DNA of 21,213 bases from a virus. Below the pieces are notes generated by a model. That model did no database searches. It saw nothing but the letters and a program-made list of their open reading frames with translations, and was not told where the DNA came from. The stretch covers positions 1 through 21,213 of the IMG/VR virus record IMGVR_UViG_3300025570_002077; one strand, 5' to 3'. Made by a program: the position numbers and the translations under genes. Below are positions 1 through 18,380 of the stretch, piece after piece; the first letter of the stretch is position 1, and every line of letters starts with the position of its first letter.

Positions 1-150
1 TGGTAGGTTATCATCTGTAACGTTAATATGTGTTCTGTTAGATTGACGAGGCTCACGTACAAGCAAGCTCGGGTCATAGTTACTAGCATACTCAGACGAC
101 TTACCGAGGTGCTTATTAATATTCGAATTATCTAGTTCTTTTAATGCCAT
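1..150 (-). CDS. queF: QueF, NADPH-dependent preQ0 reductase (N-terminal 50 residues; runs off the left edge)
   Basis: QueF reduces the nitrile of 7-cyano-7-deazaguanine (preQ0) to the aminomethyl group of preQ1. The ATG is at 148-150 and the frame stays open to base 1. The visible residues contain LGKSSEYASNYDPSLLV (about 15-31), then PRQSNR and DDNLP. From memory of the E. coli protein, these line up in order with LGKSTDYRDTYDASLL, PRSLNR and DNLPF at the N-terminus of the two-domain (type II) QueF. The catalytic Cys and Asp lie outside the window, so integrity cannot be judged. It is the last visible gene of the dpdA operon, 14 bases after the kinase stop. In this setting it would supply preQ1 for DNA modification rather than only for tRNA queuosine. 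The family call is strong despite the short length. Confidence 0.85.
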   Translation of the reverse strand, partial: MALKELDNSNINKHLGKSSEYASNYDPSLLVREPRQSNRTHINVTDDNLP

Positions 151-164
151 GTTATTATTATATG

Positions 165-749
165 TTATTTGATGTTAATGTCAAGTCCTTTTTCAGACAA
201 AGTCTTTTTAATATTTTCTAATCTTTCTTCTACAGTACCACTCAGTACTACAACCTTATCTCTCACCCTAGGATTGTTTGTAATCCAATGATTAAAGCTT
301 TCAATGATGTCATTTCTAAATCCAACATCCACACTTCGCTCGCCATCGTCTTCGATATTAACATCAGCTGGATCAGTATAAAAAATCACATCATATCTTT
401 CAATATAATTATCAAATAAATGATACGCATAATTACCAGTCCAAGGATTTAGAGCTCTATTTTCCTCTAACCAAGAAGTATAGATAATACCATCAAGAAT
501 ACATCTATCCAAAATAGTACTTCTTTTCTGCCTATTATGACTATTAATATTTTTAAAATGCTCAGTAATAATTAGAGCTTGAGTCATCTCATTACCAGCT
601 TCATTAATATCAACACCATAGTCTCTTTTAATAAGTCTAGTGACTTCATGAACAAAGTTAACGTCCCAGTTACACTTTCGTAGTCGTTTTAATAGAGTTG
701 TCTTTCCAGTACATTGAGCACCAGAAAATGATATTAGTAGTTTACTCAT
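165..749 (-). CDS. P-loop (AAA_28/NadR-like) nucleotide kinase of the 7-deazaguanine operon
   Basis: This 194-residue protein has an N-terminal Walker A motif, GAQCTGKTT (residues 10-18), after a hydrophobic strand. A likely Walker B/substrate segment, ILDRCILDG, lies near residue 80, and FYTDP near 123 resembles the strand-plus-acidic segment of small-molecule kinases. The build matches the AAA_28/NadR-type P-loop kinases, which phosphorylate nucleosides, nicotinamide riboside or similar substrates. The substrate cannot be read here. Its start codon overlaps the formyltransferase stop by one base (TAATG), so the two are probably translationally coupled. The position between the formyltransferase and queF suggests a role in the same modification, for example phosphorylating a precursor or a modified nucleotide. 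An unrelated nucleotide salvage enzyme is equally possible. Confidence 0.7.
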   Translation of the reverse strand: MSKLLISFSGAQCTGKTTLLKRLRKCNWDVNFVHEVTRLIKRDYGVDINEAGNEMTQALIITEHFKNINSHNRQKRSTILDRCILDGIIYTSWLEENRALNPWTGNYAYHLFDNYIERYDVIFYTDPADVNIEDDGERSVDVGFRNDIIESFNHWITNNPRVRDKVVVLSGTVEERLENIKKTLSEKGLDINIK

Positions 750-1390
750 TAGCAGTATATAGGTATGCAGTTCTCACGATCATTCTTAAATGTTCCATCG
801 TAGTTAAGTTCCGTTTCCAATATTATATCAGAGTTCCTAAAGAATCTCAACCATGATATTAAAGATAAGGTAGTACAAACTTTAAACATACCATTAATTG
901 AATTTATCATTAATGGGCTACCTTCAACAGCCTGCTCTGCAATAACTACGACCTCACCTCCGTCAACCTCTTCAGTTACTCTGTGAATTACACTACCAAT
1001 AACTTTATACTTATCGATATCTGTAAAGGCTCTTACTTGTGGATCCTTGCCTTTAAGTTCAGGGTAATCGACTATATGCCCAGGGTGTCCATTATAGATA
1101 GTATAAGCTTTACATGTCTCTGCTGGTATAATATTCAACCAACCATGCAATGTAGCTACATCATCTCGATGCATAATTTCATCATAGTACCTCACTTTAT
1201 AGTTCACACTCTTTGGTAGTGGTCTATACCAGAACTCAATTTTATTATACTTAAAGAACTCCTTACGTAAATTATATGACTCTTTATTGTCTGTTACAAT
1301 AAGGTCAGGCTTATAACCCTTCTTGATAAGACTTATAATCTCAGAACCTGTCTGCGAGAAGAACGCAACCCATTTTTGACTTACTTGCAT
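749..1390 (-). CDS. dpdN: PurN-like formyltransferase, candidate dPreQ1 formyltransferase DpdN
   Basis: This 213-residue protein has the 10-formyl-THF transferase catalytic triad Asn-His-Asp: YNGHPGHI (N100, H102), then HRVTEEVDGGEVV with D143. This matches the N-x-H and E-x-D-G-G motifs of PurN/GART. The N-terminus (VAFFSQTGSEI) matches the start of the Rossmann-like formyltransferase fold. Ordinary PurN acts in purine synthesis, but here the gene overlaps dpdA by 10 bases and queF lies downstream. In phages with formylated preQ1 in their DNA, a formyltransferase named DpdN has been proposed to act on dPreQ1; that assignment is recalled from published work on phage 7-deazaguanines. I infer the same role. 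Alternatives are formylation of a sugar amine or of a free base. The triad is certain; the substrate is inferred from context. Confidence 0.75.
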   Translation of the reverse strand: MQVSQKWVAFFSQTGSEIISLIKKGYKPDLIVTDNKESYNLRKEFFKYNKIEFWYRPLPKSVNYKVRYYDEIMHRDDVATLHGWLNIIPAETCKAYTIYNGHPGHIVDYPELKGKDPQVRAFTDIDKYKVIGSVIHRVTEEVDGGEVVVIAEQAVEGSPLMINSINGMFKVCTTLSLISWLRFFRNSDIILETELNYDGTFKNDRENCIPIYC

Positions 1391-2244
1391 AACTGCTTAT
1401 ATTGTTGTACGTTATAGTTAATATCGAATTTCTCTTCATCTGTAACTTCATGACCGATAAGATCAGCTAGCATAGTAGATGGCTTCTGAGTCATACCATA
1501 ATCTTTAATATAACGAATACCTTTAATACCTGCAACAACAGGGTTAGATGTATCAACAGATCTGATGGACTTAATACCTGTATAATGCTTCATCTCTTGA
1601 GGAAGTGAGTTACCTAGCAAGTGGTGTGGTTTATTATGATTCCAGATACCATCATCAATCAGCATGTTAATAAACTTACGTCTGCCGTCAGCTAGTAGTT
1701 CTAGTACTGTTCGGTGTTGATCTTGTTTATGTAACTTATCATATAGAGACTTATCTTCTACATCCATAACTACATGTGGCCTATCAACCGGCTCATAATG
1801 ACCGATAGTTTTATACCAGTAATAGTCAAACGAAATAGCAATATAATCAGCATGTGCTGACATGTACTTATAGCATTGAACGAGTTGTTGATATGTCTTT
1901 CCTTGCACAACACCGATAGTTAGGCCAGGTAGATCAGGGTATTGCATCTTGAACTTATGAAATGATGCCATAGTCTTTTGTGAGTCTTCAAGTACATCAG
2001 GTACTACATAGTAGGTAGGGTTAAGCTCTCTAACATACTTAGCGAACTTCTCTGGATCAAAAGCATGTCCAAGTTCAAAGATAGAGTTATCTAGCAATAC
2101 TTCTCTACCTTGAAGTAAAGATTGTTTAAAGAAAGAGTAATACTCAGGCTGCGTTTCGAATAGATGTACTAAGGCATAGTCATAGTCGTTGTAGTAGCGA
2201 GAGTCCTCAAGCATACTAATAGGTGATTCATGTGATACAAGCAT
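1381..2244 (-). CDS. dpdA: DpdA-type DNA guanine transglycosylase (TGT-like)
   Basis: DpdA proteins exchange guanine in DNA for a 7-deazaguanine base, using the TIM-barrel fold of tRNA-guanine transglycosylase (TGT). Visible landmarks in the 287 residues are LLDNSIFELG (50-59), YVVPDVLEDS (79-88), GVVQGKTY (111-118; TGT has a matching I-Q-G-x-x-Y segment), HHLLGNS (207-213), and SVDTSNPV (229-236). D231 in the last motif is the likely nucleophile. The C-terminal Cys3-His zinc site of tRNA TGTs is absent (only two cysteines remain), as expected for short phage DpdA. It is first in its operon, and a sigma-70-like promoter abuts the start: the -10 TATAAT is 6 nt from the ATG. The DpdA subfamily, and so whether all or only some guanines are replaced, cannot be assigned by eye. 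Confidence 0.85.
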   Translation of the reverse strand: MLVSHESPISMLEDSRYYNDYDYALVHLFETQPEYYSFFKQSLLQGREVLLDNSIFELGHAFDPEKFAKYVRELNPTYYVVPDVLEDSQKTMASFHKFKMQYPDLPGLTIGVVQGKTYQQLVQCYKYMSAHADYIAISFDYYWYKTIGHYEPVDRPHVVMDVEDKSLYDKLHKQDQHRTVLELLADGRRKFINMLIDDGIWNHNKPHHLLGNSLPQEMKHYTGIKSIRSVDTSNPVVAGIKGIRYIKDYGMTQKPSTMLADLIGHEVTDEEKFDINYNVQQYKQLCK

Positions 2245-5762: not shown

Positions 5763-6212
5763 TTAGTTCTCCCATGGAAACACCAACCAAGTACCTTCTT
5801 TTACCGTAACACCGTGATGATCAACCACATGCTTTGTATTCTCTCTCGCGAAGAGAGTAACATATCTTACAGATTTATACCTCGTATTACCAATCTTTTC
5901 TTTAATATGCTGCATAGTCTTACTTGAGTCACAAATATCATCTATAACTAAAACCTTACTATCCTTACCAATACTACCTAGATCAATGTCTTGATTAATC
6001 TCAATATCCCCTCGCTCCGTGCCCTCGTAAGAACTTACATCATAAGATAATAGCTTAGCATTAAAAATATAACTCATCATTGTAGCGGGTATCATACCGC
6101 CTCGAGCAATGCCAATAACATGCGTAAAATCCTTCCCGTTAAGCTTAAATCTCAGCGCTAAACTCTTAGTTAAGAAGTCTATTACATCGTACCCGATAAT
6201 CTTTTCTTTCAT
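5763..6212 (-). CDS. Purine phosphoribosyltransferase (xanthine/guanine type)
   Basis: The 149 residues have a PRPP-binding signature, VLVIDDICDSSKTM (about 87-100), with the two acidic residues followed by a Ser-rich loop. There is also an early GIARGGMIPA loop (about 34-43), as in xanthine-guanine phosphoribosyltransferases. The length matches Gpt (about 150). The enzyme would join guanine, xanthine or hypoxanthine to PRPP to give the nucleotide. In this phage it could recover free guanine, including guanine released when DpdA swaps bases; that link is inference. It is first in a three-gene operon with a TATAAT box 8 nt before its ATG. Confidence 0.78.
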   Translation of the reverse strand: MKEKIIGYDVIDFLTKSLALRFKLNGKDFTHVIGIARGGMIPATMMSYIFNAKLLSYDVSSYEGTERGDIEINQDIDLGSIGKDSKVLVIDDICDSSKTMQHIKEKIGNTRYKSVRYVTLFARENTKHVVDHHGVTVKEGTWLVFPWEN

Positions 6213-7614: not shown

Positions 7615-9264
7615 CTAGCCCTCACAAGTACTGCAGTTTAGAATAGATCTAGCGAGTTCCTGCGCTGGGTTAGCACTACGCTGATAGTATAAAGATTTAA
7701 TACCTTGTTCCCATGCAAAGATCATAAGTTCATTAACCTCCTTTGGTTTAGTCATAGGTGGTATCATAATGTTTAGTGATTGACCTTGATCAATATACTT
7801 CTGTCTGATACTAGCTTGAATAATAATCTCTTTCTGAGAAATCTCACCAAACGTTTTATACACATCCTTTTCTTCTTGATCTAAGAAATCTAAGTGCTGT
7901 ACTGAACCGCCATGCACGAGAATAGATCTCCATACATCATCAGTGTTCTGTTTCTTTTTAGTTAGTAACTTTCTTAACTGAGGGTTTTTAAATGTAAACT
8001 TACCCTTAGCTAAGTCCTTAACAAAGTAGTTAGAGTTAAGAGGTTCAATAGATGGTGATACCTGCCCTAGAATAAACGAGCTAGATGTAGTAGGTGCTAC
8101 TGCTAGTGTAGTTGTATTACGTCTACCGTAACCTTCTAGTATTGGTGCTTCTCCAAACATATCTGCCAGCTCAACCGATGCTTTGTCTGCTCTCTCACGT
8201 ATCGTTGACCAGATAGTACCGTTAGCCATCTTTGCCTCCATAGACTCAAACGCTACCATGTTCTTCTGCAGATATGAATGCCATCCTAACACCCCAACTC
8301 CCAGTGCTCTATGATTAAGAGCAAAGCGTCTCGGTGCTTGCATGAACTGCATACCTTCTGTCTTATCAATAAACTCTGATATAACAGCATCTAAGAAGTA
8401 TACAAGAGTTTCTACCGCGTCTGTATCTACCATTTTATCCCACTTAAGTAGGTTTAAACTCGAGAGACAGCAGACAAAGCTCTCCGCTGGGTTAGAAGGA
8501 AGCATTATCTCACTACAAAGGTTACTAGCATAAATCTTTTCACCTTTATCCTTATAAACATTAGGTGCTTGATTATTAACATTATCAGAAAAGAATACAT
8601 ACGGGTAGCCAGTTTCAAAACGCTTCTTAATAACCAGTCCCCAGATTGTTCTCTTCTCTTTATCACCGTCAAGCATGGACTTCATCCATTCATCACTGAC
8701 AGTAACACCAATAGACATATCCTGAATGTCATTACCTTCTGATTTAATCTTAAGGAACTCTTCAATATCTGGATGATCAACTGGTAAGTAAGCAGCAAAG
8801 GAACCTCGACGAACGTTCCCTTGAGATACAACGTTCATAAGCTTATCATACAACTCCATAAAGTGTACAGCTCCAGTTGATTGACCACCAGTAGATATAG
8901 CAGTACCACGACCTCTTACGTCACCAAAGTAACCAGATGTTCCACCTCCTTGAGCAGTCATAATACCTACTTCAGCAGTCTTCTCTAGAATACCTGACAT
9001 AGTATCAGGTACATATGAACCGAAGCAACTAATAGGAAGTCCACGCTCTCTACCAAAGTTACTCCATACCGGAGAGCTTAAAGAAAAGAAACCTTTACGC
9101 ATATAGTCTTCAAACTTGTCTGCATAGCCATCAATCTTAAGGATTTTTTCAGCATGCTCAGCTATATCTCTAATACGCTGTTCAGGTGATTCTCCTTCTA
9201 GTAAGTACCCACGCTCTAGAAATTTACGCGAGTCTTTGTTAAGCCAATATATACGTTTGTTCAT
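7615..9264 (-). CDS. nrdA: Class I ribonucleotide reductase, large (alpha) subunit, no ATP cone
   Basis: NrdA reduces ribonucleotides to deoxyribonucleotides with NrdB. Key residues are present: C80 in PISCFGSY and C265/C266 in SFVCCLSS (active-site disulfide pair), the NLCSEI motif with N248, the thiyl-radical C250 and E252, the radical-transfer pair Y526-Y527 in SLYYQRSAN, and the C-terminal C-x2-C (C544, C547). At 549 residues it is about 200 shorter than E. coli or T4 NrdA. The sequence starts almost at the catalytic domain, so the N-terminal ATP cone that lets dATP shut down the enzyme is missing. It follows nrdB by 6 bases. The enzyme supplies dNTPs for phage replication from degraded host nucleotides. 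Confidence 0.95.
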   Translation of the reverse strand: MNKRIYWLNKDSRKFLERGYLLEGESPEQRIRDIAEHAEKILKIDGYADKFEDYMRKGFFSLSSPVWSNFGRERGLPISCFGSYVPDTMSGILEKTAEVGIMTAQGGGTSGYFGDVRGRGTAISTGGQSTGAVHFMELYDKLMNVVSQGNVRRGSFAAYLPVDHPDIEEFLKIKSEGNDIQDMSIGVTVSDEWMKSMLDGDKEKRTIWGLVIKKRFETGYPYVFFSDNVNNQAPNVYKDKGEKIYASNLCSEIMLPSNPAESFVCCLSSLNLLKWDKMVDTDAVETLVYFLDAVISEFIDKTEGMQFMQAPRRFALNHRALGVGVLGWHSYLQKNMVAFESMEAKMANGTIWSTIRERADKASVELADMFGEAPILEGYGRRNTTTLAVAPTTSSSFILGQVSPSIEPLNSNYFVKDLAKGKFTFKNPQLRKLLTKKKQNTDDVWRSILVHGGSVQHLDFLDQEEKDVYKTFGEISQKEIIIQASIRQKYIDQGQSLNIMIPPMTKPKEVNELMIFAWEQGIKSLYYQRSANPAQELARSILNCSTCEG

Positions 9265-9270
9265 GTCAGT

Positions 9271-10242
9271 TTAAAATAATTCATCCTCAGAGAATGACTG
9301 GTTCTTCTTGGCATACTCAACTGGTTTACCATGGAAGAAGTCGGTCATAGAGTTACCAAGTAACTCCTCTTCGAACCATATTGTACTGGCTATTTTAGCT
9401 TTATCAATGTTAAATACAGGATTAAATCCAATCATTTCAAGTGAATCATTAATTCTACCTTTAACAAACTCTTTTAGTACATCAGCAGACAGACCTTCTT
9501 CGTCTACACCATTAACCATCCAGTCAATGATTTTAGCCTCGGCCTTGTATGCCTCCTCTGCTTCATGTGAAATACGCTCAATTAACTCATCGTCTATCAA
9601 TTCAGGATACTCTGCACGAATGGTATTAATAAGACGAGCCCCCACCATAGCGTGTATATTCTCCTCGTTACGAGTATATTTTACCTGCTGGTCAGTATCC
9701 TTGAGAACGTTCTTAAACCTTGCAAACCAGTTAATAACATAGAACTGAGAAAACAGCGAAACATTCTCAACAAATAAAGTAAACAAAATAAGAGCATATA
9801 GATACTGCTTCTTACTATCCTTGTAGAATCGATGTGTATACTTCTTAAGATACTTAACACGACCCTGTATAAAGTCTAACTTAAGGTTCTCTTCAAATAT
9901 ATCTTCCATGTCAAGCACAGAAAGCAATCTCTCATATGCGTTGTTATGAATAACCTCAGTGTTAGCCATAACATATCCAAGATCCTGAAGAGATGGATGC
10001 GGCAAGTTATCGCCTAGTTTAGCCCAGAAAGTCTTAACTGCTACCTCAATCTGACCAATAGCAGATAGACAACGAATTACGATTTCTCTCTCTTGGTCGT
10101 TTAATACAACCTTAAACTGCTGTACATCCGACTTAAATGTAAACTCCTTATCAGTCCAGAATCCATTGTGCATAGACTCAATGAACTGCTCTGTCCATGG
10201 GTATTGGTTAGGTTTCCTTGAAACCTGCTCATCAAATATCAT
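9271..10242 (-). CDS. nrdB: Class I ribonucleotide reductase, small (beta) subunit
   Basis: NrdB houses the dimetal centre that makes the radical used by NrdA. Ligands visible in the 323 residues are E96 and H99 in NTEVIHNNAY, E159 in LFVENVSLF, and E194 and H197 in EENIH. The radical-site tyrosine is Y103, four residues after H99 as in E. coli (H118, Y122). The first ligand, Asp84 in E. coli, appears to be Glu here (E66 in GQIEVAV), as in some other subclasses. The C-terminal SEDELF fits the short acidic tail that docks on NrdA. The gene precedes nrdA by 6 bases, an order opposite to the usual nrdA-nrdB. Confidence 0.95.
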   Translation of the reverse strand: MIFDEQVSRKPNQYPWTEQFIESMHNGFWTDKEFTFKSDVQQFKVVLNDQEREIVIRCLSAIGQIEVAVKTFWAKLGDNLPHPSLQDLGYVMANTEVIHNNAYERLLSVLDMEDIFEENLKLDFIQGRVKYLKKYTHRFYKDSKKQYLYALILFTLFVENVSLFSQFYVINWFARFKNVLKDTDQQVKYTRNEENIHAMVGARLINTIRAEYPELIDDELIERISHEAEEAYKAEAKIIDWMVNGVDEEGLSADVLKEFVKGRINDSLEMIGFNPVFNIDKAKIASTIWFEEELLGNSMTDFFHGKPVEYAKKNQSFSEDELF

Positions 10243-11648: not shown

Positions 11649-11671
11649 CAAATCATCCTAGGATGATTTGT
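11648..11671. terminator. 24-bp perfect palindrome between convergent genes
   Basis: Each arm is 12 bp (left arm ACAAATCATCCT, no spacer). It begins at the last base of the lysozyme stop codon and covers the last codons and stop of the sulfotransferase on the other strand. The position suggests a bidirectional terminator or mRNA 3'-end stabiliser. There is no clear T-run on either side, so factor-independent termination is uncertain. Confidence 0.5.
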
Positions 11672-12254
11672 AGTCGTAATTAAAGTTATCTATTACCCAT
11701 TTTTCTCTCTCAGCAACCATATCTATTAATTCTTGGTTATAATATTCAGTGTATGGTTTTTTGTATGAACTTTTATTAGAGTGTTTTAAATTTGGGATTG
11801 GTGTCATACCAACCTTATTACAAAATACAGCAAAATCCTTATTAAGGTTCTCGAGTCGGCCTACCATATCAACTGATAGGGTGTTGTTTTTAAATAAATA
11901 ATAATCCTGTGAAGGGTTCTTTTTTATTATTAAGCCTAAGTTAAATTTACCCCTTGTTTTAAAAGCAGATAAATCAAGACAATTATCAACCGTCTCCATC
12001 CACCTTAAAAACGAAGTATACCTTACCCATGGATTTCTTACTACAGCGAATTTAAAGTACTTATCAAAGTCCCAGGCATTTTTTAAAAACCCTATCTCTA
12101 CATCTGCAATACTAGCGTGTTGATAAAAATTACCAGGATTTGGTTCGCCTAAAACATCAACAATACCCAAAGGGCGTAGTGTTTGTATAAAGGTTGTTGT
12201 ACCAGCCTTTGGTATGTCTATTTTAATGAACTTATGTTTATGAGATATTAACAT
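11658..12254 (-). CDS. Sulfotransferase family protein (copy 1 of 3)
   Basis: The PAPS-binding loop is IPKAGTTTF (14-22), matching the 5'-phosphosulfate loop. AVVRNPWVRYTSF (about 70-82) is the 3'-phosphate-binding segment of the Sulfotransfer_2-type family. The 198 residues are near the lower limit for a complete domain. It would move a sulfate from PAPS to a hydroxyl of a glycan or lipid in the cytoplasm. It is last in the glycan cassette, overlaps the methyltransferase by 7 bases, and its 3' end forms half of the palindrome at 11648-11671. The acceptor cannot be read from the sequence. Confidence 0.82.
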   Translation of the reverse strand: MLISHKHKFIKIDIPKAGTTTFIQTLRPLGIVDVLGEPNPGNFYQHASIADVEIGFLKNAWDFDKYFKFAVVRNPWVRYTSFLRWMETVDNCLDLSAFKTRGKFNLGLIIKKNPSQDYYLFKNNTLSVDMVGRLENLNKDFAVFCNKVGMTPIPNLKHSNKSSYKKPYTEYYNQELIDMVAEREKWVIDNFNYDYKSS

Positions 12255-12940
12255 CTTTTAAACAATAATGATTTGTAGTTCTTTGGTTCTCCAAGATAGC
12301 GGGGTTTTGTAATGGTGACCCTTTCTAGTTTGAATCCTATGTCAGACAATATAGCTTCTATATCTTTCTGAGAGAGCATCCACCATGTATGACCATGCGT
12401 GTTGCTGTAAAAACTAGAGCGCGCTTGAAACGGGTTAATTAAAATCGCGTGATGTTTTACTTTATAAAGAATATTCATCAAAGTTAATATTGGATCTCTG
12501 ACATGAGACAACATTGTGCCAAAAACTGCCACATCAAATTCACCTAATTCATCTGGCAGTGGGTCATATATGTTAGCTCTGAAGATTTTGTTATTGGAGT
12601 CGAGTTTTTCGTGCAAATAATCATAACTATTGAACATTCCATTAGTTCTTTCTGCTCTTGGTTTTTTATAGCCCCGTTTTATCAAGTGATCCCAATAGCT
12701 TCCATCTGGCATATCAAAAGAAACAACATCAGCACCCTGATTCTCCATCTCAAACGACAAATAACCAGAAGCAGCACCAACATCAATAACACGCTTACCT
12801 CTAAAGTCTAAATTGCTTAAATAATCATCAATACAGTCAGTCAAATCCCAATCACCATCAATGATTTCATCTCCCACCTTTACCGTGTGATAAAATTTAC
12901 AGTCTTCTTTTTTTATATTTTTTATAGGCTTAATGTACAT
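12248..12940 (-). CDS. Class I SAM-dependent methyltransferase (CmoB/DUF1698-like)
   Basis: The 230 residues have motif I VIDVGAASGYLS (51-62), the acidic ribose-binding residue in VVSFDMPDG (D76), and a motif IV-like segment (FDVAVFGTMLSHV, about 134-146). SYWDHLIKRGY (about 81-91) recalls the CmoB/DUF1698 group. This group includes tRNA wobble-uridine enzymes and many methyltransferases of sugar clusters. Between two sulfotransferase genes, a sugar O- or N-methyltransferase is the better guess here. It overlaps both neighbours (7 and 11 bases), so translation is probably coupled. Confidence 0.8.
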   Translation of the reverse strand: MYIKPIKNIKKEDCKFYHTVKVGDEIIDGDWDLTDCIDDYLSNLDFRGKRVIDVGAASGYLSFEMENQGADVVSFDMPDGSYWDHLIKRGYKKPRAERTNGMFNSYDYLHEKLDSNNKIFRANIYDPLPDELGEFDVAVFGTMLSHVRDPILTLMNILYKVKHHAILINPFQARSSFYSNTHGHTWWMLSQKDIEAILSDIGFKLERVTITKPRYLGEPKNYKSLLFKRC

Positions 12941-13799
12941 AATTATTATAAATTTTTCTATCCCATTGTGATTTGAACTGCCATGCTTCGCGAGTCTCTT
13001 TTTTAAGTTGATGCAGTCGAATATTTTCTTTTTTTTCTGTTTTATTTTTAAAAATTATATTTTTTTTATTTTTTCTACCCGACCTCGCATACTCTTGACG
13101 AGCTTGTCTAGTTTCTTCTTGTGTCCCGTAAGCAAATATATTAAGATTTTTTATATCGATGTCATGACACTCCAACATAATTTTCCTCAACCTAACATCT
13201 ACTTTACTTATATCAAACACTCTCATTTTATCCAGGCTTGAACAAGCTTTATCAAAATTTTTCTGTGTAATAGGTATTATTCTCTCTAAACCCGTCAGTC
13301 TACGTATTAGCCATGAATCCTCAATTTGTGTAGAGTTAATATAATCTTCAAATGTTAAATTAGCAAAAGCGTTGTGATATAATTCATGGCTTGAGTTTTC
13401 AGATTGTGTGTAGTTAAACATAGATAATGCACGTTGGTATGGGTCACGTAAACAAATAAATTCTTGAAACTCTTGCCCGCGTTTTAAAAAATGCCTTAAA
13501 TCTTGGTTAATACTATAAAAACCATAATCCGCGACTCTTACCATAAAAATCTTTAATTGCTGTAGCTTGAAATGGTCAAAATCAACAGAATAACAAACAT
13601 TATTTATTTTATTATAAGCATTATTAAAAGTTACCTCACCATAGCATAATAATCTATATGCAATATGACCATCTTTAGTTATATCGATATGATAGCATGG
13701 TTCACCATCAGCCGCTTCGCGAAGTGCAGCAAAACATACATTGTTTATATACGTACCGGCACACTTTGGAATATGGTAGAATATCGGTATCTTTTTCAT
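12930..13799 (-). CDS. Sulfotransferase family protein (copy 2 of 3)
   Basis: The 289 residues have the PAPS loop YHIPKCAGTYI (8-18) and the 3'-phosphate segment FICLRDPYQRALSMF (114-128). It is longer than the other two copies and has an unusual Lys/Arg-rich stretch near the C-terminus (GRKNKKNIIFKNKTEKK) that may bind an acidic substrate or membrane. The sequence outside the two motifs is unlike its neighbours, so it probably acts on a different acceptor rather than being a recent duplicate. It overlaps the methyltransferase by 11 bases and is 4 bases from the glycosyltransferase. Confidence 0.8.
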   Translation of the reverse strand: MKKIPIFYHIPKCAGTYINNVCFAALREAADGEPCYHIDITKDGHIAYRLLCYGEVTFNNAYNKINNVCYSVDFDHFKLQQLKIFMVRVADYGFYSINQDLRHFLKRGQEFQEFICLRDPYQRALSMFNYTQSENSSHELYHNAFANLTFEDYINSTQIEDSWLIRRLTGLERIIPITQKNFDKACSSLDKMRVFDISKVDVRLRKIMLECHDIDIKNLNIFAYGTQEETRQARQEYARSGRKNKKNIIFKNKTEKKENIRLHQLKKETREAWQFKSQWDRKIYNNYVH

Positions 13800-13803
13800 G
13801 TCT

Positions 13804-14760
13804 CTAATCTGGCCATTCTTCTTGCATATGTGGTTTAGCCTTAACTAGTAAAAACTTATACAGGTCTCTTAACTCTTTGTTTCTACTAAAGGTAATATGG
13901 TCTATATCTATTCCATTTAAGTCACAACCATGCTTTCTAGCAGACGACACGACATCCTCCAACCATAAATATATTTCTGGATTAAAAACTAAACAATCCA
14001 TTAATTTTTCTTTATCTAGTACACGATCATGGCTATGTTCCTGTAGAAAGGGGTACGAATCCCACTCTCTAGATAAATCAGCTGTATCTATCCAGTCGTA
14101 AACTTCGCGATGGTAGATCCAACAATATGCACCGAAAAAATTATACTCAGTAAAATTGTCTACGTTTTTTAAGTATTCTAGAATAGTAACACCATGATTA
14201 CTAATGAACCACTTACGCATTTCCTCAAATAACCATTTAGGGTAAATTAGAGGCATTCTTCTCATAAATTCATACTCTACCGGCTCATCTAACTTTAAAG
14301 CTTCTGTTATAATATCTTGCCAGTGTGTACAATCTTCACCTGGATGATCTCTCTTAATACTCTCATATGATGTCATTAACATAGTTGGCTTACCATCTTT
14401 ATTAAAGTACATTTCAGGTGTATGCTCTTTATAGAATATAGAATCACTATCTACATGACAAATCCACTCTGTATCATCTGGAACGTAGAGATCGCTATAG
14501 AACTTCATATATTGCTGTCTAACATATCCTTTTGACACGTTTCTAGCATTTGTATCTATATAGTAGTTTATATTATTATGCTGTAACCACTGATCAGATT
14601 GCGCGCAATCTCTTTCATGATTATCAATCACAACATTATAAGAATGGTAGGTTTTGCAAAATGCATTAAAGCTATTCCACGACTTATTTAACCACTCTAA
14701 ATCCCTATCATAAGTTACTGTTAAAACAGATACTTTTGGTGTATTAAAATTCGTATCCAT
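13804..14760 (-). CDS. GT-A-type glycosyltransferase-like protein
   Basis: The start is taken at the ATG 14758-14760 because it lies directly before the GT-A beginning (PKVSVLTVTYDRDLEWL). A further in-frame Met at 14793 lies deeper in the upstream gene. At about 102-107 HVDSDS gives a DxD motif for a metal-sugar nucleotide. The 318 residues include several Trp/Tyr-rich segments (for example FGAYCWIYHREVYDWI) typical of glycan-binding sites. It is probably a sugar transferase building the glycan that the sulfotransferases modify. It overlaps the preceding sulfotransferase by 17 bases. Confidence 0.65.
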   Translation of the reverse strand: MDTNFNTPKVSVLTVTYDRDLEWLNKSWNSFNAFCKTYHSYNVVIDNHERDCAQSDQWLQHNNINYYIDTNARNVSKGYVRQQYMKFYSDLYVPDDTEWICHVDSDSIFYKEHTPEMYFNKDGKPTMLMTSYESIKRDHPGEDCTHWQDIITEALKLDEPVEYEFMRRMPLIYPKWLFEEMRKWFISNHGVTILEYLKNVDNFTEYNFFGAYCWIYHREVYDWIDTADLSREWDSYPFLQEHSHDRVLDKEKLMDCLVFNPEIYLWLEDVVSSARKHGCDLNGIDIDHITFSRNKELRDLYKFLLVKAKPHMQEEWPD

Positions 14761-15316
14761 ATTTTTCAATTTCAAAATGTGATAGTGAAGCAATTTGATC
14801 TATTAGCTGTTGTTGATCGTAATATTCCCTATAATCCTGACTCGGTCTATTTGTATCATGCTTTAGATTTAACACCTCGTAATCTGCTATGCCTAGTTTA
14901 CCCATTACAATCTTTAAATCGCTCTCAAAATGCTCCTGCCTTATGATATCATCTACTATATACTTACCCTTAATGTGAAGCTTTGGGTATATAGCATAAT
15001 TTATACTCTGTATATGGACATCGTTAAGTATAAATTTCCAGAACGGCTGCTTATAGTCTTTATGTTTTTGTAAATGGTGATAATAAGATACTGCTCTATC
15101 CCACGGGTTGCGTACTACTGCAAACTTATAGTAGTTCTTAATACCTGGTCCTATATGATTAGCCCATTCTGCAGCGCGCCAGTGACCGCTTCCTTTAGGC
15201 TCGAGCTCGTCTGAGATCATGCCTTCGGAATATTCGTTTCTTAAAATGTGCCTTAAACTGGTACCAGCACACTTTTGCGGGTGAATAAATAAGAATTTTT
15301 TTTCAGAATGATACAT
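14744..15316 (-). CDS. Sulfotransferase family protein (copy 3 of 3)
   Basis: The 190 residues have the PAPS loop IHPQKCAGTSLR (11-22) and the 3'-phosphate segment KFAVVRNPWDRAVSYY (64-79), both close to the Sulfotransfer_2 consensus. A perfect TATAAATA ends 10 nt before its ATG, with ACTAGGTACT between. This marks the start of a late transcript that runs through the glycosyltransferase, sulfotransferase 2, the methyltransferase and sulfotransferase 1. It resembles copy 1 in size and motif wording more than copy 2. Substrate unknown. Confidence 0.85.
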   Translation of the reverse strand: MYHSEKKFLFIHPQKCAGTSLRHILRNEYSEGMISDELEPKGSGHWRAAEWANHIGPGIKNYYKFAVVRNPWDRAVSYYHHLQKHKDYKQPFWKFILNDVHIQSINYAIYPKLHIKGKYIVDDIIRQEHFESDLKIVMGKLGIADYEVLNLKHDTNRPSQDYREYYDQQQLIDQIASLSHFEIEKYGYEF

Positions 15317-15326
15317 AGTACCTAGT

Positions 15327-15334
15327 TATTTATA
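15327..15334 (-). promoter_or_regulatory. T4-type late promoter motif (TATAAATA) inside the glycan cassette
   Basis: A perfect consensus copy on the minus strand, 10 nt before the sulfotransferase 3 ATG. It lies in the short gap between two cassette genes, which argues that it is a used promoter and that the downstream half of the cassette is late. Confidence 0.65.
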
Positions 15335-15344
15335 ATAAGTGATG

Positions 15345-16277
15345 TTATAAATCAAGCTTAGTTTGTTCGGAAATAGTTTTCCAATCGGCACCTGGTGATA
15401 GTTGTCTATTCATTATATGGCAAGATAATCCCGGTATAGGTGATATTAAAAGACGCTCTCTCTCATGATATAATTTTGGCCAAACCGCGCTATCTAATAT
15501 TGTTTGATAAACAATATCATAATCTTCATCAAATATTTTTTTTGTTGACATTGCATGTGGTGTACCTCCTGGCTGGATTACCATCCAGTGATGGCTGCTA
15601 TCCGGCATGAACCCTTGGTTCCAATCATCTGCACTTTGTGTGCCTGTGCTAAAGAAGTTAAACTTTTCAAATCTATTAATATCTGTAATTGGTCCTTTTA
15701 AATTATCACCACATAAGTGTTTATATCTATATCTTGCATCACACGGTGCAATATAATTGTTTGATGTTAAGTCTGGAAACTCCTCATAAAGTAAATTTAT
15801 TTTATCTAACCAATTATTTTGAAACAAATAATCATTCTCACATATAAAAATTTTATCATCTGGATCTACTCTCAATGTTTTTATATATTTTAACGTTTCT
15901 CTAAGAGATATAAAATCTCTCGGTAGTGGGTAGTTATCTGTTGTTAGAACAGTTGTAGCGGAGTGCTGTCTATTTGGTTGTATTTTTTGAATATTTCTAG
16001 CTAAGTCTAAATGATCACTAACACAGCTACTAGTATCGATAGTGTAGATTGTTAAAAAGTCTTTATATTTATATATAAAATTGTTTGTTGGTTCTAAACT
16101 ATCCATTATAATATGAAGACAAACATCATCACGGTCTTTAATAGAATTAAATAAGCTTAAGAAACACTTTTCAAAACTAAACCAGCTCGGTATACGTCCG
16201 TTACCTGCTACATTAGATTTAGACGGATTCTCTGTATCATAATGACGGTAAAAAATATGTAGTTTGTTATGCTTCAT
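15345..16277 (-). CDS. Putative glycosyltransferase (GT-A-like)
   Basis: The 310 residues show alternating strands near the N-terminus (LHIFYRHYD, CLHIIMDS, LTIYTID) and an acidic motif KIFICENDYLFQNNWLDK (about 143-160). There E-N-D takes the place of the usual DxD, and aromatic residues follow as in sugar-nucleotide transferases. The C-terminal half has ACDARYRYKH-like and HHWMVIQPGGTPHAMS-like segments. The family cannot be named with certainty, but the layout and neighbours fit a glycosyltransferase. It lies 28 bases before the late promoter motif's side of sulfotransferase 3 and 2 bases after a possible 30-residue gene. Confidence 0.55.
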   Translation of the reverse strand: MKHNKLHIFYRHYDTENPSKSNVAGNGRIPSWFSFEKCFLSLFNSIKDRDDVCLHIIMDSLEPTNNFIYKYKDFLTIYTIDTSSCVSDHLDLARNIQKIQPNRQHSATTVLTTDNYPLPRDFISLRETLKYIKTLRVDPDDKIFICENDYLFQNNWLDKINLLYEEFPDLTSNNYIAPCDARYRYKHLCGDNLKGPITDINRFEKFNFFSTGTQSADDWNQGFMPDSSHHWMVIQPGGTPHAMSTKKIFDEDYDIVYQTILDSAVWPKLYHERERLLISPIPGLSCHIMNRQLSPGADWKTISEQTKLDL

Positions 16278-16279
16278 GC

Positions 16280-16372
16280 TTATAAAATATTTTTTTGTTG
16301 AAAACAGCCAGGTGCATCTGATTCTATATCGATAAAAACAATATATTTTTTAATTGGTATAATTTCTTTCAT
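16280..16372 (-). CDS. Possible 30-residue protein or gene remnant
   Basis: ATG 16370-16372 to TAA 16280-16282 encodes MKEIIPIKKYIVFIDIES followed by about 12 residues. It fits tightly between neighbours (4 bases after the acyltransferase stop, 2 before the next start). The strand-like KKYIVFIDIES resembles the first beta strand of a larger enzyme. It may therefore be a tiny gene or the leftover N-terminus of a lost cassette gene. There is no other support. Confidence 0.35.
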   Translation of the reverse strand: MKEIIPIKKYIVFIDIESDAPGCFQQKNIL

Positions 16373-16376
16373 ATTT

Positions 16377-16964
16377 TTACTTATTAACATTTTGGGCATG
16401 TGCAGGGATTCCTACGTAGCATCCGGGCTCGTTTATGTTTGTTACAACCGCAGCACACATACCTATAATGATGTTATCTCTAATCGCGATTTTCTCTTTA
16501 ATACAGGAATTAGCTCCTAAATAAACATTATCACCTATACTAACACTACCAGATACAACAGCGCAAGGCATTGCACTAAAAAAATCACCGATTGAGCAGT
16601 CATGACTAAGATGATTACTTCTGTTTAATAGAGCGTGTTTACCTAATTTAATATTTGTTGTTAATATACAGTTAGCACCGATAAAGCTACCTTCACCTAC
16701 AGATATATTTAAATCCATAATTAAAGCGGTTGGATGAATAAAAGTAAAATAAGTTGTGTTAGCTGGTAGCTTGCTTACTAGTTGTCTTCTTAGCATGCTA
16801 TCCCCAACAGCCACCATAACCTCATATTTATTATGATCAAACTCTGATAGAGGTCTAGTATGTTCGCAGACAAACTCATCATCAACAAAACAGGTCAAAC
16901 AACAACCCATCTGACTCATTATCTCTCTTGCATGGCCACCATAACCTATAAGTGCTCGCTCCAT
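16377..16964 (-). CDS. NeuD/PglD-type sugar O/N-acyltransferase (left-handed beta-helix)
   Basis: The 195 residues have an N-terminal Rossmann-like UDP-sugar-binding part starting ALIGYGGHARE (4-14). A left-handed parallel beta-helix of hexapeptide repeats follows (about 83-190; for example ISVGEGSFIGANCI, VSIGDNVYLGANSCI). The catalytic His is H121 in LSHDCSIGDF, as in PglD/NeuD. The enzyme would acetylate an amino sugar nucleotide using acetyl-CoA. It follows the DegT-type aminotransferase by 8 bases; this pair normally makes a 4-acetamido-dideoxy sugar or a related residue. Length is normal for the family. Confidence 0.85.
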   Translation of the reverse strand: MERALIGYGGHAREIMSQMGCCLTCFVDDEFVCEHTRPLSEFDHNKYEVMVAVGDSMLRRQLVSKLPANTTYFTFIHPTALIMDLNISVGEGSFIGANCILTTNIKLGKHALLNRSNHLSHDCSIGDFFSAMPCAVVSGSVSIGDNVYLGANSCIKEKIAIRDNIIIGMCAAVVTNINEPGCYVGIPAHAQNVNK

Positions 16965-16972
16965 ATCAAATA

Positions 16973-17608
16973 CTACTTATAAATATCAAATTTACTTAGA
17001 TCAGGGTATGGTAGAGTTAAGTCTTTATTATGTTTTTTTGTACCATCCATATTATAGAACTGTTTAATAAGGAGTAAACCTCTAGCTGCTAGCTCAGGCA
17101 TCATATAAAAATTCCAGCCTAACATGTCAAAATTATCATCATGATACGAGCATTCGTTACGTCCACTATATCTAGCACGTCTAAACCAATCATTAGCTTC
17201 TTTTGAATCGGTTAAAATAGCACCACCTTTACTAAGCTTAAAGTGTTTATATGGACCGGTAAAAGATATGCACATATGGGTATCTGGTATATACATATCC
17301 GCTGTAAATCTTAACGCAGAATCCCATACATTACTTCCCTCCAATAAATAAGCTCCTGTTAGTGTATTACCCTTCATTTTTTTAAAATCAACCTTTAAGC
17401 CAGCGTGTATAATTTCACATGGTACAGATGGGTAGGTACGAGAGGGTATCGTTATATAATCTCTGCAGTTTTTTTTAATATGATGCTCATAGTATAAAGA
17501 TAAAAAAAGACCATTGCTTAAATTATCCAAACATATAGCATATTTAGCACCGGTATAATCTGCTAAACTTTCTTCAAGAGAATCAGTAACCGCATATACA
17601 TTAGACAT
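16973..17608 (-). CDS. DegT/DnrJ/EryC1-type PLP aminotransferase, short form
   Basis: Numbering is from the ATG at 17614, though the ATG at 17608 is preferred as the start because TAAAAATA lies 9 nt before it. The Schiff-base Lys is K123 in SFTGPYKHFKLSKGGAIL, matching the F-x-x-x-K-x-x-x-x-G-x-G-G pattern of the family. A PLP-pyridine Asp is D98 in VWDSALRF. DegT proteins usually have about 370 residues; this one has about 211. It retains most of the large PLP domain and lacks the normal C-terminal small domain. It is open to a clean stop, so it is either a compact phage form or a truncated gene. With NeuD it would make an N-acyl amino sugar. Confidence 0.7.
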   Translation of the reverse strand: MSNVYAVTDSLEESLADYTGAKYAICLDNLSNGLFLSLYYEHHIKKNCRDYITIPSRTYPSVPCEIIHAGLKVDFKKMKGNTLTGAYLLEGSNVWDSALRFTADMYIPDTHMCISFTGPYKHFKLSKGGAILTDSKEANDWFRRARYSGRNECSYHDDNFDMLGWNFYMMPELAARGLLLIKQFYNMDGTKKHNKDLTLPYPDLSKFDIYK

Positions 17609-17666
17609 ACACATACTTATTTTTAACAGTTATAATAGCAATATACTATTACCACTTTTACATAAA

Positions 17667-17686
17667 AATTTTCTAATTAGAAAATT
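17667..17686. repeat. 20-bp perfect palindrome in the leader of the aminotransferase gene
   Basis: The arms are AATTTTCTAA and its complement with no spacer. It lies in the 181-base gap (17615-17795), about 60 bases upstream of the aminotransferase start. It could be a protein-binding site or an RNA stem; the high A+T content makes it weaker evidence than its length implies. Confidence 0.5.
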
Positions 17687-17697
17687 AATAAAGTCTG
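17683..17697 (+). repeat. 15-bp direct repeat, copy 1
   Basis: AATTAATAAAGTCTG, followed by TTAC. The same 15 bases occur at 18474-18488, followed by GTTAC. The two copies bracket the wcbI-like gene 791 bp apart. Nothing else is seen in the rest of the 17615-17795 gap except the palindrome and a TATAAATA motif. Confidence 0.55.
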
Positions 17698-17785
17698 TTA
17701 CCCGGTAAATGAGCTTTGTGGTTTTTTTCTGTATTGGAATGTTTCCAGAAAATATGTATTGTGCTATTATTTTGTTTATTAATGA

Positions 17786-17793
17786 TATTTATA
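17786..17793 (-). promoter_or_regulatory. T4-type late promoter motif (TATAAATA) before the aminotransferase
   Basis: A perfect consensus copy on the minus strand in the intergenic gap, just after the wcbI-like stop codon. If used, it would give the aminotransferase an unusually long leader of about 170 nt that includes the 20-bp palindrome. Other late motifs here sit 5-12 nt from their genes. AT-rich surroundings make chance occurrence possible. Confidence 0.4.
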
Positions 17794-17795
17794 TA

Positions 17796-18380
17796 TTAAC
17801 CATTTGGCCATTTATATTTTGAAATTGTATTATATTGTTCATGTGAATAATAATTCCAATCAAGTTTATTACAAATACATCTAACCAATTCAAGATAGTA
17901 CTTATGATTAGGGTGTGTATATGCTGTTGGAGATTGGATGGATATCTCATCTACATGTTCATCAATAATTTTATGCGCTGGTATATCAATGTCAAACTTT
18001 TTCCATCGATCAATCATTCCATCATATAAGTGATGAAGATCTGGGTCTGGAGACCAATGAAAACTCGATATTGATATAGGTAAACATCTCTCATTTATAT
18101 ACTTAAGTATTTTTTCATAGTTCCAGTTTAAAGAGTATCCCGGACTTATATGCATATACACTAGTATATCGGCCTCATTCAAGAAATCAATAGACTCTTC
18201 AACAGTATTTAAAAATGGTAATTGTGACCCGGTAGGGTCTAAAGATTTAAGTTTAAAAAGTTTTTCAGCTGGTATATGTTTACATACAAAATCCGGAGAC
18301 AGTTGCTGTATATACCATGTTAAGGCTCTAGACTGACAGTTACCTACGGTTGCTATATTCATACTTTGTGACTTAAACAT
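17796..18380 (-). CDS. WcbI-like polysaccharide biosynthesis protein
   Basis: The 194 residues begin with IATVGNCQSRALTWYIQQL (about 9-27). This G-N-C-Q-x-R-A signature is typical of WcbI-family proteins of capsule clusters, where binding of CoA suggests acyl transfer. HHLYDGMIDRW and YTHPNHKYYLEL near the middle and end fit family-style conserved His and Asp positions. An alternative ATG 6 codons in (18362) starts right at the signature strand. ATTAAATA abuts the first ATG, and 15-bp direct repeats flank the gene. It is likely to add an acyl group to the glycan made by the cassette; the exact reaction of the family is not settled. Confidence 0.7.
   Translation of the reverse strand: MFKSQSMNIATVGNCQSRALTWYIQQLSPDFVCKHIPAEKLFKLKSLDPTGSQLPFLNTVEESIDFLNEADILVYMHISPGYSLNWNYEKILKYINERCLPISISSFHWSPDPDLHHLYDGMIDRWKKFDIDIPAHKIIDEHVDEISIQSPTAYTHPNHKYYLELVRCICNKLDWNYYSHEQYNTISKYKWPNG

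Follow-up and report, generated by a model that had tools for sequence, protein, structure and literature searches.

The IMG/VR virus record IMGVR_UViG_3300025570_002077, a contig of 21,213 bases that was analysed whole and is called the window below, carries at its left end four minus-strand genes that are likely to provide the insertion and tailoring steps of a pathway that modifies DNA with 7-deazaguanines, with 7-(formylamino)methyl-7-deazaguanine (fdPreQ1) as the predicted product. In the proposed pathway, preQ0 would be made by FolE, QueD, QueE and QueC, encoded outside the fragment or by the host, and converted to preQ1 by QueF. A DpdA3-like transglycosylase would swap guanine for preQ1, giving dPreQ1, and a formyltransferase would place a formyl group, probably taken from 10-formyl-tetrahydrofolate, onto the aminomethyl group, giving fdPreQ1. 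The expected outcome is DNA resistant to many restriction enzymes. That the exchange takes place in DNA, after replication, is the version of this pathway that we somewhat favour.

The predicted DpdA3-like guanine transglycosylase (positions 1381–2244, 287 amino acids, DpdA below) contains the conserved motifs LD52NS, PD83, Q114G115, HLLG211 and D231TSNP. Its gene overlaps by 10 nucleotides (1381–1390) with that of the putative DpdN-like formyltransferase (749–1390, 213 amino acids, with N100, H102 and D143), which in turn shares one nucleotide (749) with the gene of a P-loop nucleoside/nucleotide kinase (165–749, 194 amino acids), modelled with the fold of the NadR ribosylnicotinamide kinase (NadR-RK) and the deoxynucleoside kinases. 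A gap of 14 nucleotides separates the kinase stop from the start of QueF, the preQ0 reductase, of which the first 50 residues are present (1–150); the rest is lost at the contig end, which falls at base 1. An earlier note, made from the letters of the window, had described this minus-strand unit with its 10- and 1-base overlaps, and the open reading frames (ORFs) are located exactly as it claimed. The intact formyltransferase triad that it reported is likewise exact in the window protein, and is invariant in 13 aligned sequences. Its further proposal, that QueF gives preQ1, DpdA inserts it and the formyltransferase makes fdPreQ1, has gained from synteny with a cultured phage, from the fold, the triad and the type of QueF, and from preQ0 genes in large relatives; the kinase, DpdA's near-constant partner, fits none of its steps. 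The note's suggestion to seek folE, queD, queE and queC left of base 1 has no sequence to act on, as the record starts there. PADLOC gave no match for four proteins.

The same order, DpdA, formyltransferase, kinase, QueF, is present in Flavobacterium phage vB_FspM_immuto_2-6A (NC_055915; immuto below). The identities to the window proteins are 47% for DpdA, 39% for the formyltransferase, 30% for the kinase and 43% for the amino-terminus of QueF. Unlike the window, immuto has a 50-residue ORF between DpdA and the formyltransferase; its QueC is encoded elsewhere, and upstream lie genes for QueD, QueE, a phosphoribosyltransferase, FolE and a PRA-PH hydrolase. This last enzyme, a PRA-PH type nucleoside triphosphate pyrophosphohydrolase, lies ahead of DpdA (L001:11273–11797), and its family is also present in five IMG/VR records. 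Cui and colleagues are said to have described, in 2023, fdPreQ1, DpdA3 and a predicted DpdN, believed to be in an immuto phage; on this reported footing, the window cassette is a further case of the DpdA3/DpdN kind.

The nearest cultured relatives of the window DpdA are those of immuto and of the CP220 type (44% identity), both aligned over 93%. Campylobacter phage CP220 (Firehammervirus) has its DpdA followed by a homologous kinase (28% identity), as in the window; it differs in having no formyltransferase in its record and no QueF in the fetched locus. Its base is reported to be dADG, and its DNA to be fully modified. We take DpdA3 to be the subfamily name given by Cui and colleagues to the Campylobacter/immuto group. 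To judge from these identities, the DpdA of the window is akin to this group and not to DpdA1, which the earlier note overlooked. Campylobacter members of the clade are reported to replace all their guanine, because of which the degree of replacement in the window's phage is probably high as well. For Campylobacter phages, replacement by deazaguanosine is also mentioned in passing in one paper.

Relatives were collected from IMG/VR as 16 and then 75 more loci by DpdA queries, and 80 by a formyltransferase alignment, with many contigs in both sets; the best 80 of 559 DpdA-like and the best 80 of 552 formyltransferase-like stretches were kept, these being stretches and not distinct phages. A single-sequence query with the formyltransferase had confirmed nothing, whereas the alignment did. 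Of 152 loci that contain a DpdA, 150 remain once L002 and a short piece are set aside, and these fall into 80 clusters at 90% identity. QueF and the kinase, neither of them ever a query, each occur in 78 of the clusters. The formyltransferase occurs in 55, an inflated share, since it served to fetch half of the loci. In every locus counted, the cassette genes are on the same strand. The clusters without a kinase are contig ends: L013 stops 1 base past DpdA and L019 152 bases past the formyltransferase ORF. In seven loci (L008, L020, L021, L022, L046, L066 and L082), DpdA is located 6.7–7.1 kb from a formyltransferase-kinase-QueF block, while the genes of L170 run QueF, formyltransferase, kinase, DpdA. 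The closest relatives of the window, L003 (DpdA 97% identical) and L004 to L006 (93%), have the gene order unchanged. A 197 kb record, G001, contains a second, partial DpdA and a second phosphoribosyltransferase at its other end (C1:3–359 and 188260–189063), which may be due to redundant ends, to mixing in the assembly or to true duplication.

The predicted structure of the window DpdA (mean predicted local distance difference test score, pLDDT, of 90) has the fold of the tRNA-guanine transglycosylases (TGT), although the protein does not match the Pfam TGT family (PF01702), nor does anything else in the window. The model can be superposed onto archaeosine TGT (PDB entry 1iq8) with a Z score of 17.8 and an r.m.s.d. 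of 2.8 for 228 residues, and onto the DNA preQ0 insertase DpdA (PDB entry 7ui4) with a Z score of 17.4 and an r.m.s.d. of 3.2 for 229 residues; the tRNA TGTs among the matches listed give 17.0–17.4. Residues D52 and D231 are invariant among 17 aligned clade members, and among 150 DpdA sequences the motif LDNS is found in 149, HLLG in 149 and DTSNP in 146. Judged by eye from their order, these motifs resemble the TGT residues that bind the base and act as nucleophile. On this tentative likening by motif order, D52 and D231 may correspond to D102 and D280 of TGT.

Such a fold would suit an enzyme that modifies tRNA instead of DNA, which we consider very improbable. The CxCx2C zinc motif, present in the E. 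coli TGT, is absent from all 17 clade DpdA proteins, the Pfam TGT family is not matched, and the protein is kin to the DpdA of CP220, whose DNA is reported to be fully modified. The DpdA1 proteins of Enterobacteria phage 9g and Streptococcus phage Dp-1 are likewise guanine transglycosylases for 7-deazaguanine in DNA. Their motifs (LDSGAFS/VDSSAYS and CDSSS/ADSTS) are comparable by eye to those of the window DpdA; they differ in giving no usable hhalign match and in having no kinase alongside. Dp-1 is modified in part, at about 1.7% of its guanines, as given in the text of Hutinet 2019 (PMC6884629), which fits an enzyme acting on DNA. Net charge, considered as a sign of DNA binding, is uninformative: it is −2 to −12 for the 17 clade members, −8 and −3 for the two DpdA1 proteins and −6 for the E. 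coli TGT.

The formyltransferase matches the Pfam domain Formyl_trans_N at 27.4 bits (cut-off 26.1), and the NGHP motif is present in 116 of 116 formyltransferase ORFs, some contigs being counted twice. In a profile search of the PDB, the best matches are PurN-type, glycinamide ribonucleotide (GAR) formyltransferases (E 4e-12), with sugar and tRNA formyltransferases weaker. PurN has the Formyl_trans_N domain and the N-H-D triad in common with the window protein, but they differ in score, with the PurN equivalog TIGR00639 giving 29.2 bits, far under its cut-off of 150.1, and in a loop: GSN in PurN is GSE in 13 of 13 aligned formyltransferases. We take GSN to be the phosphate site for GAR; if this role holds, the substitution implies a substrate other than GAR. 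With its domain and triad, and its position beside DpdA and QueF, the protein is predicted to be DpdN-like, DpdN being, as we understand it, the name of an enzyme predicted to formylate dPreQ1. In the collection of cultured phages, the formyltransferase matched four immuto records only, at E 0.01. It has a carboxy-terminal extension in L010 (8605–9465, 286 amino acids), and long ORFs are found in L092 and L093.

The window also contains families of the DegT-type aminotransferases, PglD-like acyltransferases and sulfotransferases, and the formyltransferase has a weak match to dTDP-4-amino-sugar formyltransferase (22.6 bits against a cut-off of 238). It might thus be a sugar N-formyltransferase belonging to the phage surface-sugar genes at 11.6–18.4 kb. 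We give this hardly any credence, as the PurN match is stronger and the gene stands with DpdA, kinase and QueF within the fetched locus in 54 of the 80 clusters, and in immuto too.

Formyltransferase and DpdA do occur apart. Five records that lack a formyltransferase at the DpdA locus (34.5–209 kb; G008, G009, G010, G035 and G036) contain none elsewhere, which gives formylation the look of an added step, with the proviso that the records may be fragments. Some phages of this kind thus seem to do without formylation, and are predicted to carry dPreQ1. Conversely, ten contigs with a formyltransferase, of 7–41 kb, have no DpdA. In three DpdA-less loci (L103:5297–6546, L104:4215–5437 and L142:5291–6525), the formyltransferase comes right after a protein that by eye resembles class II glutamine amidotransferases, and in L103 and L104 a gene that by eye is QueC-like is near; the formyltransferases of these two may also belong to 7-deazaguanine gene sets.

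The 50 residues of QueF in the window score 18.2 bits against QueF_N, under the cut-off of 25.6. Among the relatives, L003, L004 and L006 have a complete QueF and L005 a truncated one; the protein of L004 matches TIGR03138 along its whole length (E 7e-69, 232 bits; cut-off 293). The motif ESK(S/A)xK(L/Y)(Y/F/W), for NADPH, is found in 152 of 152 QueF ORFs of relatives (some contigs counted twice), while the window fragment stops before it. This motif is a mark of reductase-type QueF. By sequence, QueF and the amidotransferase QueF-L are hard to part, as noted in the text of Hutinet 2019 (PMC6884629), and if the window protein were of the latter kind, the product would be dG+ or a mixture and the formyltransferase would act elsewhere. 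This is quite improbable, given the constancy of the NADPH motif and the match of the L004 protein along the length of TIGR03138, albeit under the cut-off. Moreover, in the same text the viruses Dp-1 and HVTV-1, which have a QueF-type protein, carry dPreQ1 in their DNA, Dp-1 with no dG+ and HVTV-1 mainly as dPreQ1 with a little dG+.

Among 20 large clade records, QueC and QueD each occur in 18, FolE in 15 and QueE in 14; the QueE count comes from one distant protein as query, and many of its matches are weak. In G001, whose DpdA is 63% identical to that of the window, FolE and QueD are located about 46–47 kb from DpdA. In the sequence beyond QueF, which runs to 3.3 kb in L003 and 7.8 kb in L004, neither the profiles for FolE and QueD nor the QueE protein of immuto found a match, and QueC was not searched there; for QueE this absence is weak, because QueE is divergent in the clade. 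It is plausible, we infer, that the phage of the window synthesises preQ0 itself, through genes outside the fragment. G004, a record without a FolE match, contains a protein that by eye is like GTP cyclohydrolase IB (FolE2; L194:1098–2147).

Several points weigh against the proposed pathway. The window itself holds no preQ0 genes, and 25 of the 80 DpdA clusters are without a formyltransferase. A profile of 17 DpdA relatives finds no match by sequence in the PDB, and hhalign gives a probability of 11% for DpdA against E. coli TGT and of 0.3% against the DpdA of 9g and Dp-1, too weak to place its residues on either TGT or DpdA1. The Z scores are tied, so the modelled fold does not part DNA from tRNA transglycosylases. 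The sequence leaves the target of formylation among free preQ1, a nucleotide and DNA, and the kinase has no place in a scheme made up of QueF, DpdA and formyltransferase. The earlier note had counted as adverse a grouping of the transglycosylase with tRNA TGTs and of the formyltransferase with purine or sugar enzymes. The former is tied in fold between tRNA TGT and DNA DpdA, without the zinc motif; the latter is nearest to PurN, yet at 29 against 150 bits, and neither adverse grouping is seen at full strength.

The kinase, present in 78 of 80 clusters, is a near-constant partner of DpdA in the clade. It matches Pfam AAA_28 (E 3e-17), and its model (pLDDT 90) is nearest to the ribosylnicotinamide kinase of NadR (Z score 18.5), followed by deoxycytidine kinase (about 17), deoxyguanosine kinase (16.5) and vaccinia thymidylate kinase (16.3). 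With the modelled fold near all of these alike, a nucleoside or nucleotide is the natural guess for its substrate. Its presence in 20 of 20 large clade records is no fresh test, the records having been picked from loci already showing it. Where a DpdA locus has no formyltransferase, which is so in 57, the kinase frame abuts or overlaps that of DpdA in 55 (frames were taken from stop to stop, so that overlaps are upper bounds). In Campylobacter phage CC_R7, missed by the DpdA BLAST search, profiles place DpdA at 103,390–104,121 and the kinase at 104,185; a kinase homologue of this phage adjoins a dUTPase gene. In L031 (3114–3665), the kinase is split over two frames, as if by a frameshift or sequencing error. 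The kinase profile finds nothing in ten DpdA1-type control records (9g, Dp-1 and eight picked among the matches listed), which at 42–77 kb are smaller than most clade records.

This partnership is what a route through the nucleotide pool would need. There, DpdA would swap guanine on a deoxynucleoside or deoxynucleotide, the kinase would phosphorylate the product and the polymerase would incorporate it; such a route would also explain complete guanine replacement. We regard it as rather unlikely, but it draws on much of the evidence above: a kinase that was never a query and is missing only at contig ends, its touching frames with DpdA, its absence from DpdA1-type controls (subject to their smaller size), its nearness to NadR-RK and the deoxynucleoside kinases, a formyltransferase nearest to PurN, an enzyme of a small nucleotide, and a PRA-PH pyrophosphohydrolase just before the immuto DpdA, of a family found in 6 of 24 records.

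Further support comes from six distant DpdA relatives, four of which encode another kind of P-loop protein immediately upstream of DpdA. In BSTP12 and Youna2, overlapping genes encode the P-loop protein, DpdA and PolA, in this order, and in MA9V-3 and phiST an AAA_18 protein adjoins DpdA upstream. None of the four is matched by the kinase profile, so they are not close homologues of it, and in the PDB their matches are weak (best E 0.017, to YorR, and 0.16, to a deoxynucleoside kinase); that they are kinases rests on Pfam AAA_18 for MA9V-3 and phiST, on the annotation of BSTP8 and on the P-loop. A strict P-loop pattern found 5 of 8, missing phiST, where the motif ends in GKD. The other two relatives, RHph_I1_18 and StAshley, have no kinase beside DpdA, the former with a weak kinase match far off, which speaks against the pool route.

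So do the seven loci in which the kinase is 6.7–7.1 kb from DpdA and stands beside formyltransferase and QueF, and the change of the presumed phosphate loop of PurN from GSN to GSE. An enzyme that removes dGTP is not general among the records: MazG, tried as such a partner, is present in 3 of 24, one above cut-off, and PRA-PH in 6 of 24, so that neither is core. A polymerase gene beside DpdA was dropped as a clue, since DpdA1 genes also adjoin polymerase genes. We know of no enzyme with the TGT fold that works on mononucleotides. A study by Crippen and colleagues from 2019 reportedly detected no dADG phosphates in the nucleotide pools of Campylobacter during infection and made the case that the base is inserted into DNA already present.

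Nor is the kinase family confined to this setting. Of 49 matching cultured records, 28 are Streptomyces phages (28–31% identity over 74% for those listed), and Karimac, the only one tested, has no DpdA match. A second, weaker homologue is located elsewhere in 9 of 20 clade records, in seven of them within 3 kb of QueE or QueD (sites include G004:C1:96401–96904 and L194:4902–5648, and others are in G001, G002, G005, G009, G010 and G011), so that the copy linked to DpdA is not the sole such kinase of those phages. The association of kinase and DpdA was not found in print in a limited literature search on 7-deazaguanine, phage and kinase; the word kinase is absent from the main text of Hutinet 2019 (PMC6884629).

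As a third possibility, the kinase may serve to recycle the guanine freed by each exchange. The window contains a candidate for such salvage, an XGPRT-like (xanthine-guanine phosphoribosyltransferase-like) enzyme (5763–6212, minus strand), with a best PDB match to entry 1vdm (E 2e-15) and a best NCBIfam match to xanthine phosphoribosyltransferase (79 bits, cut-off 138). It may convert freed guanine to GMP, which could perhaps go on to GTP, the substrate of FolE. The related phosphoribosyltransferase gene of immuto lies between QueE and FolE. Of 37 records searched, 17 contain a phosphoribosyltransferase, none of these being among the ten DpdA1 controls.

Elsewhere in the window, on the minus strand, the large and small subunits of a ribonucleotide reductase are encoded (7615–10242), the large one 59–61% identical to versions from Rhodobacter, Ruegeria and Sinorhizobium phages. 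Genes of sulfotransferase, methyltransferase, acyltransferase, DegT aminotransferase and WcbI-like proteins (11658–18380, minus strand) look like a set for glycan or surface modification.

Known in the collection searched from a single group of cultured phages, the immuto-type cassette is common among phages that have not been cultured. A rather unlikely reading is that in the DpdA3-like clade DpdA and the P-loop kinase form one device for nucleosides or nucleotides: preQ1 would take the place of guanine before polymerisation, the kinase would carry the product towards the triphosphate, and the resulting genome would lack ordinary guanine. If so, the kinase-less DpdA1 phages would modify finished DNA in part, and the different P-loop proteins that adjoin it in phages of Bacillus, Weizmannia, Cellulophaga and Chryseobacterium would have been recruited independently for this task. 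Some cassettes have the formyltransferase and others lack it, which offers a natural experiment, and the kinase rule makes it testable how a phage can replace all its guanine.

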